Program-made: the position numbers and the translations under genes
The notes under the pieces: generated by a model
What the model was told of the DNA's origin: nothing
The model's database searches: none
Seen by the model: the letters and a program-made list of their open reading frames with translations, nothing else
Part shown: positions 40,300 through 41,498 of the stretch, piece by piece
Numbering within the stretch: the stretch's first letter is position 1
Layout of the letters: the number at the start of each line of letters is the position of its first letter
From: Alphaproteobacteria bacterium
GTDB taxonomy: Bacteria; Pseudomonadota; Alphaproteobacteria; Rhizobiales; JAKIUO01
Assembly (NCBI GenBank): GCA_024280895.1
Contig: JAJRPI010000086.1
Span: 1-64,000, forward strand
DNA: 64,000 nucleotides
Direction: 5' to 3'

Positions 40300-40313
40300 T
40301 AAGGAGAATAATT

Positions 40314-41447
40314 GTGTCTAGATCGAACGTTGCCTTCCTTGTGGCCGCCGGCCTTACAATGGCAATAACGGGTATTGCCCATGCGAGCAAAATTCATACG
40401 GGTGGCGCGCGCGGTGCTTATAATGGGGACTTTTGTCCGCCATTGGCAAAAGAGCTTGAAACGGCAAAATTTAACTATAAATGTGCCCTCTCGCTGGGCT
40501 CCAATGATAATATTGGCAAAGTAAAAGCTAATCCTGATGATTTGGGTTTTTCGCAATTTGACGTATTCGCCCTGAATGCCTCGAAGCAATATCCAGCTCA
40601 ACCATTTCACGTCATTCGTAATGATATCGCCCGTGAATGTCTGTTTATGGTGACAAAGAACAAAGAACTTTTGAGTTTTGGTGATGTAGCAGCGCGCGCC
40701 GCCGATTTGCACTTTGTATTGCCGCCACAAGGTAGCGGTAGTGCCTCGACATTTGATTATCTGCGCCGCATCGATCCAGAAGGACTGGGACGCGCGCTTG
40801 ATGTGACTTATGCAGAAAGCACCGATATTGCCTTGAAGAAGGCGCTGGCAGGTGACAGTAAATCGGTTGCCCTGTTTGTCCAGTTTCCTGACCCTAATAA
40901 TGATCGCTTCAAATTGATTGCCAAGGAAAAGGGTCTGTTCATTCCCGTCATTGATCGTAATATTTTACGCCAGACAATCGATGATCAGAAGGTCTATTTC
41001 GCGCAGGAAACAGATGTTAGCAATGGCAAATTTTGGAAAAAAGGCGCTAAGGTAACCACCGCTTGTACACCAATGGTGATCTTTACGGGTAACCCGAAAT
41101 TGATGACCGACAATGATCAAAAACTTGATCACAAGGACATGATCAGTACGGTCAATGATATTCCTGCGGAAAAATTATTGCCCAAGCAGGGTTTCTTCAA
41201 AAAAATGTGGTCTAAAACCAGAGCTCTTTCTGCGGATGCCGTGGATAAAATGATGGTGGCTTCCGAAAAAGCGCGTGAAAAAGCAGCGCCCATGCTCGAA
41301 AAGGCCAAGGAAAAAGCCCTCGAATTAAAGGAAAAAGCAGCTCCCATGCTGGAAACAGCCAAAGAAAAAGCTAAAGAGCTTGGCGAAAAAGCCATGGATA
41401 AGGCCAAAGACCTTGGTGAAGCGGCAAAAGAAAAAATGCAGCAATAA
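40314..41447 (+). CDS. secreted binding-protein-like protein with an 18-residue repeat helical tail
   Basis: A protein of 377 aa beginning at GTG with AAGGAG seven bases upstream. A signal peptide (cleavage likely after IAHA) precedes a domain of about 280 residues. Its TGGARGAYNGDFCPPLAKEL and DLGFSQFDVFAL resemble TAXI-type periplasmic solute-binding proteins. Four cysteines in that domain could form disulphides. After a linker (FFKKMWSKTRALS) the last 72 residues are almost only Ala, Lys, Glu, Leu and Met. They hold two 18-residue repeats (EKAAPMLEKAKEKALELK and EKAAPMLETAKEKAKELG) and related shorter units, an amphipathic LEA- or apolipoprotein-like helix. No transport genes lie next to it. 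The function is unknown; the domain call is by motif resemblance only. Confidence 0.75.
   Translation: MSRSNVAFLVAAGLTMAITGIAHASKIHTGGARGAYNGDFCPPLAKELETAKFNYKCALSLGSNDNIGKVKANPDDLGFSQFDVFALNASKQYPAQPFHVIRNDIARECLFMVTKNKELLSFGDVAARAADLHFVLPPQGSGSASTFDYLRRIDPEGLGRALDVTYAESTDIALKKALAGDSKSVALFVQFPDPNNDRFKLIAKEKGLFIPVIDRNILRQTIDDQKVYFAQETDVSNGKFWKKGAKVTTACTPMVIFTGNPKLMTDNDQKLDHKDMISTVNDIPAEKLLPKQGFFKKMWSKTRALSADAVDKMMVASEKAREKAAPMLEKAKEKALELKEKAAPMLETAKEKAKELGEKAMDKAKDLGEAAKEKMQQ
41277..41384 (+). repeat. 54-base tandem repeat coding for the helical tail
   Basis: Two consecutive 54-base units encode 18-residue repeats (residues 322-339 and 340-357 of the protein starting at 40314). The protein copies differ at a few positions and the DNA at more, mostly third bases. 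This suggests selection on the helix rather than a fresh duplication. Confidence 0.7.
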
Positions 41448-41470: not shown

Positions 41471-41498
41471 AAAAGGCAGCCCACGGGCTGCCTTTTTT
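41471..41498 (+). terminator. intrinsic terminator after the 40314 gene
   Basis: AAAAGGCAGCC (41471-41481) pairs with GGCTGCCTTTT (41486-41496) around a 4-base loop, followed by further T. It lies 24 bases after the stop and separates this gene from the SDR gene, so the 40314 gene is likely a single transcription unit. Confidence 0.93.

Follow-up and report, generated by a model that had tools for sequence, protein, structure and literature searches.

Gene, expression signals and export

In this work, a window of 64,000 nucleotides (the whole stretch of DNA analysed) from a member of the Rhizobiales was examined around an open reading frame at 40314..41447 on the forward strand. The frame starts with GTG at 40314, runs for 377 codons and has its stop at 41447. 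The frame itself, its homologues and an AlphaFold2 (AF2) model describe the whole gene as encoding a TAXI-type binding protein of 377 aa with an amphipathic tail. It is a genuine gene, and an intact copy was found in each of the four congeneric genomes searched, at 78–92% identity. The strong Shine-Dalgarno and the terminator proposed in an earlier sequence-only reading are both in place. The motif AAGGAG (40301..40306, forward strand) lies 7 nt 5' of the GTG, and a terminator-like intrinsic hairpin with an 11-bp stem and a T-run follows the gene at 41471..41496 (forward strand), although such sites are no more numerous across the whole region than in shuffled sequences. The proposed signal peptide also held. 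Residues 1–24 (40314..40385, forward strand) form a predicted Sec signal peptide of the signal-peptidase I type which, as read from the sequence, has n-, h- and c-regions, AHA before the cleavage point (AHA-S) and no lipobox cysteine. Residue A24 is invariant in the core alignment A2, and the AF2 pLDDT is low over residues 1–21.

The TAXI binding domain

The N-terminal domain (residues 25–293; 40386..41192, forward strand) is a TAXI-type solute-binding fold and is well supported as such; the predicted structure and the comparisons of fold and of profiles agree on the TAXI-like periplasmic domain suspected earlier. In the AF2 model, built with 19 homologues, the core is confident and most 10-residue blocks of residues 31–290 have a pLDDT of 86–96. 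By comparing the fold with the PDB, the top six matches were all TAXI proteins (Z 19.1–20.4), and the next were other binding proteins (13.5). The core profile A2 was aligned by hhalign with 16 canonical TAXI proteins (A4) at a probability of 97 and E of 8.6e-11. Every Pfam and NCBIfam match of the window protein alone was sub-threshold, including against the Pfam NMT1_3 cut-off, yet with homologues added the TAXI case is clear. The TRAP_TAXI profile matched 13 of 19 members at E ≤ 0.1 (best E 1.9e-4), and short-tail members (G488, G072) passed the NMT1_3 cut-off unaided.

The glutamate contacts of Vibrio VcGluP, Y45, S75, Q93, and E125 (PMC11574862), map by profile alignment to Y36, S63, Q81, and E108 of the window protein, where Y36, S63, and Q81 were placed by one profile alignment and E108 only by the hhalign comparison with canonical TAXI proteins. 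These predicted ligand residues span 40419..40637 (forward strand). Among 18 core sequences, Y36, Q81, and E108 are invariant and S63 is nearly so. The four cysteines recorded by the sequence-only reading, C41, C57, C109, and C251, are likewise invariant or nearly so among homologues. C109 and C251 are jointly absent from L019, L080, and L083, and C41 and C57 from L020, L084, and L085. Because the cysteines vanish in pairs, in two lineages, the alignment suggests two disulfides, C41–C57 and C109–C251. The former matches the position of the α1–β2 disulfide C53–C67 of VcGluP, with an offset of two on the strand.

Extent and repeat structure of the tail

The tail comprises ~84 residues (294–377), in which the repeats make up the last ~52. 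It had been described as 72 residues long with an exact 18-residue period; the repeat is real, but an exact period of 18 was too strong a statement, since units of 11, 18, 22 or 29 residues occur. A conserved aromatic junction and the first tail helix (residues 294–325, FFKKMWSKTRALSADAVDKMMVASEKAREKAA; 41193..41288, forward strand) are conserved in alignments A1 and A3, with a pLDDT of 78–86 at residues 301–320, and the first 33 tail residues (FFxxxWxKTKxLSAxxxEKMxxxSEKAR) are common to long-tail members. The repeat part (residues 326–377; 41289..41444, forward strand) was defined by repeat, autocorrelation and charge analyses and consists of 18- and 11-residue units. Repetition at the DNA level was also confirmed, as a 54-nt tandem repeat of 2.1 copies (41277..41392, forward strand; Tandem Repeats Finder score 127) that is visible in direct repeats too.

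At the protein level, autocorrelation of the window tail peaks at lags 18 (0.39) and 11 (0.37), values reached in none of 2000 shuffles, and two 18-residue copies are followed by an 11-residue register. The homologue tails mix units of 11, 18 (11+7), 22, and 29 residues, and beyond the first 33 tail residues their autocorrelation lags are 11, 18, 22, 29, 33, and 36. Fifteen of the 17 long tails lie above all 2000 shuffles (p 0.018 for L014 and 0.109 for L007). The composition of the units can be read off directly in L076, as 11+7 for 18 residues and 11+11+7 for 29. This homologue has the longest tail of the set (L076:2350-3015), 222 residues of near-perfect 29-residue repeats.

Every homologue extends past residue 293, and the survey proposed earlier found a tail of 72–222 residues in 21 of 28 rows, kept across ~12 families of the same order. 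Short tails occur in the f17 and f27 relatives (32–33 residues) and in one f2 member (58 residues), and the tree of the 28 cores needs three changes between long and short tails. The sequence-only reading had named two outcomes that would count against it, a prediction without a binding-protein fold and a tail absent or random in homologues. Neither occurred, as the fold is predicted and the tail is conserved.

Amphipathic geometry of the tail

AlphaFold predicts a helical tail in both the window protein and L078, with low confidence over the repeat. The maximum of the hydrophobic signal lies at 98.5–99.5 degrees per residue in 16 of 17 tails (97 in L007) and at 99–99.5 in most of them, and the periodicity is 3.62–3.64 residues per turn. 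In 16 of 17 tails, the first proline is 33 residues from the start of the tail. Within the helical parts, all 35 proline-proline spacings equal 11, 18, 22 or 29, so the hydrophobic stripe never slips; the significance of these spacings is descriptive, because the accepted values were picked after the lags had been seen, the non-helical C-terminal ends of some rows were trimmed and the rows share ancestry. With the helix axis fixed from uncharged residues only, all 13 D/E residues of the window tail fall on the polar centre and 13 of its 16 K/R residues at the interface, and none of 5000 permutations was as extreme. The same bias was significant by permutation in 15 of 17 tails (p ≤ 0.0002), weaker in L014 (p 0.005) and absent from L007. 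Lys/Arg flanking the stripe with Glu/Asp opposite defines the class A helix of apolipoproteins, and by its geometry the tail belongs to this class of amphipathic helix.

In profile searches, Pfam Apolipoprotein (PF01442) gave sub-threshold matches in five of six tails tested, the best being L076 with 33.8 bits, followed by L009 (28.0) and the window (16.6), all below the curated cut-off of 90. LEA_4 (PF02987) matched none of the six tails at E ≤ 1. The tail had been called LEA/apolipoprotein-like; the apolipoprotein side of this comparison has the better support, from class A charges, proline punctuation and sub-threshold Pfam matches, and the LEA side found no such profile match. Tail matches to Pfam YtxH, Phasin_2, ATP-synt_B, and DUF883 were judged compositional.

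Genomic context and distribution

The gene follows radA, cvpA, and purF in 10 families of the order. On its 3' side, where the contig permits, there is an SDR gene, often followed by MBL-tatD-metG-holB. These conserved neighbours reveal little on function because they are housekeeping genes. No transporter gene adjoins the gene in the window, as had been stated before, and by neighbour identity no fused DctQM or other transporter neighbour was found at 13 syntenic loci of the 10 families. The short-tail f27 members are located elsewhere, in locus L092 beside dnaG, and the adjacent genes scanned next to short-tail homologues likewise contained no transporter. A caspase-domain (Peptidase_C14) protein is encoded at L092:11033-12502, near the short-tailed homologue and dnaG.

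DctM genes were found elsewhere in all 16 genomes searched; since every genome tested has them, their presence is uninformative as a clue to the partner. No PF03616 match to gltS was found in the protein's own genome, so the gene does not qualify as part of a TAXI-GltS pair. Two canonical TAXI genes of this genome (G000), C81:99904-100791 and C77:3824-4690, adjoin DctM-family permease genes, and thus canonical TAXI-TRAP systems exist in this organism as well. Three more NMT1_3 matches of the same genome are on contigs without a DctM match (C49, C46, and C56). In the complete genome G028, the long-tailed protein is present together with just one weak canonical TAXI match. A second protein with such a tail was not found in the own genome.

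Across the order, matches at 1e-10 were found in 31 of 297 genomes, including four of the distant f17 type. Apart from the window gene, the class-wide search returned just N-terminal TAXI matches and, outside the order, no subfamily member of full length. The only named homologues on plasmids were TAXI proteins at 26% identity.

Discussion

We hypothesize, with roughly even confidence, that the product of the gene is an orphan periplasmic binding protein of the TAXI type whose amphipathic tail docks reversibly on the membrane. The fold, the conservation of the ligand site, the geometry and conservation of the tail and the absent transporter neighbour were computed, and from them membrane docking, a ligand and a partner are proposed. 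The two-lobed N-terminal domain would be exported by Sec and would close on a ligand that is small and either acidic or an amino acid, probably glutamate-like. The C-terminal class A helix of 11- and 18-residue units would dock reversibly on the membrane, and docking would raise the local concentration of the binding protein around permeases or receptors whose genes lie elsewhere. The tail would thereby replace the lipid anchor carried by many TAXI proteins. Such an alternative tether is plausible because TAXI proteins are often lipoproteins (PMC12344293) but the window protein has no lipobox. Between lineages, the tail would grow or shrink in units that hold the hydrophobic stripe in phase. 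Of the two roles suggested in the sequence-only reading, membrane tethering would fit this picture, but nothing specific to envelope stress was seen.

Several properties of the repeat count against docking. It is Ala-rich and weakly hydrophobic, with a hydrophobic moment of 0.24–0.33, whereas the model peptide 18A, which binds lipid, has 0.565. The lipid-discrimination factor is low for the most part (0.3–0.9); a value of 1.07 is reached only at the start of the tail, in its initial 18 residues. The net charge is only about +5, and the pLDDT of the window repeat is 51–69. Because the repeat is weakly hydrophobic, reversible docking fits better than permanent binding. Soluble LEA-like or coiled-coil behaviour would be expected to give a similar sequence appearance.

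Coiled-coil oligomerisation is the main rival, because BP0403 of Bordetella pertussis (TAXI-GltS), a TAXI protein that is likewise atypical and has no TRAP permease, forms dimers via a helical domain (PMC12344293). At least two copies would pair through the tail into a multivalent binding protein in the manner of BP0403, and the large hydrophobic residues on the junction helix and weak matches to ATP-synthase b and designed-bundle profiles point the same way. The periodicity of the tail is not the heptad value of 3.5 residues per turn, though hendecad coils near 3.67 would still be compatible. Moreover, the stripe is mostly Ala, the polar side carries regular prolines and an occasional glycine, and the central D/E with flanking K/R is the class A pattern, so we consider oligomerisation doubtful. 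Both proteins are atypical TAXI proteins with an added helical part. BP0403, however, is a lipoprotein in which an N-terminal domain and the helical dimer domain precede the SBP and gltS is adjacent, whereas the helix of the window protein is C-terminal, its lipobox is lacking and no GltS was found in its genome.

The tail might instead be a LEA-like protectant of the periplasm: unstructured in water, it would turn helical when dried or salt-stressed and would protect membrane or protein during osmotic stress. Its EKAKEKALEL-type units resemble the 11-residue LEA-3 pattern, and group 3 LEA proteins (PF02987) likewise have Ala/Lys/Glu 11-residue units of weak amphipathicity. Weak hydrophobicity and a low lipid-discrimination factor, as in the tail, are typical of group 3 LEA proteins (PMC10808001), and the hydrophobicity of the repeat is nearer the values reported for them than those of apolipoproteins (compare PMC10808001). 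Unlike group 3 LEA proteins, however, the tail has no LEA_4 match and is fused to a folded, conserved periplasmic binding domain; the gene is single-copy per genome and has housekeeping neighbours only, which makes this role unlikely. A rigid spacer or envelope linker, running like the TolA helix across the periplasm to a peptidoglycan or outer-membrane partner, would be served by a straight helix of ~50–190 residues whose length differs between lineages, but it is quite improbable given that the helix ends without a terminal domain or anchor, that length varies about threefold inside one order and that a spacer has no need for a strict amphipathic stripe. That the tail is a functionless, slippage-driven neutral extension of an ordinary orphan binding protein is hardly credible, for despite the duplication evident in the 54-nt repeat and relatives with tails of 32–58 residues, the phase-preserving units, the 35 proline spacings and the charge geometry persist over ~12 families whose sequences have diverged.

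Alongside BP0403 and the group 3 LEA proteins, two further systems are the nearest known counterparts. The TAXI-TRAP binding proteins (VcGluP, PDB 8S4J; Thermus thermophilus, PDB 1US4) share the fold, the core length and the Y/S/Q/E ligand residues, but the window protein is only ~12% identical to them, has no adjacent TRAP membrane gene and carries the extra C-terminal amphipathic tail. TAXI proteins are described as having 300–350 aa and no parts other than their two globular lobes and hinge (PMC12344293). The exchangeable apolipoproteins (PF01442) share proline-punctuated class A units with the tail and are its best recurring sub-threshold Pfam match, whereas their units are 11/22 and those of the tail 11/18/29, and the hydrophobic face of the tail is weaker; this likeness need not reflect common descent. 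The binding fold is thus known, and what is new is the type of tail, which is undescribed for the TAXI fold in the open-access literature searched; no account of a binding protein that has a tail of this kind was found there. More tentatively, a lipid-surface helix of the apolipoprotein type may have arisen independently in a bacterial lineage, attached to a periplasmic solute-binding protein, as a lipid-free, length-tunable tether (or as a lipid-carrying or lipid-sensing binding protein) serving permeases encoded elsewhere.

TAXI proteins are described as two globular lobes that work with an adjacent fused TRAP permease; the conserved branch studied here lacks that neighbour and carries a helix of apolipoprotein geometry. 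Should the tail dock on the membrane, a third means of keeping a binding protein there would exist, besides free diffusion and lipid anchoring. The tails change by phase-preserving units and, if docking is true, would provide a clean natural series for the evolution of repeat helices.
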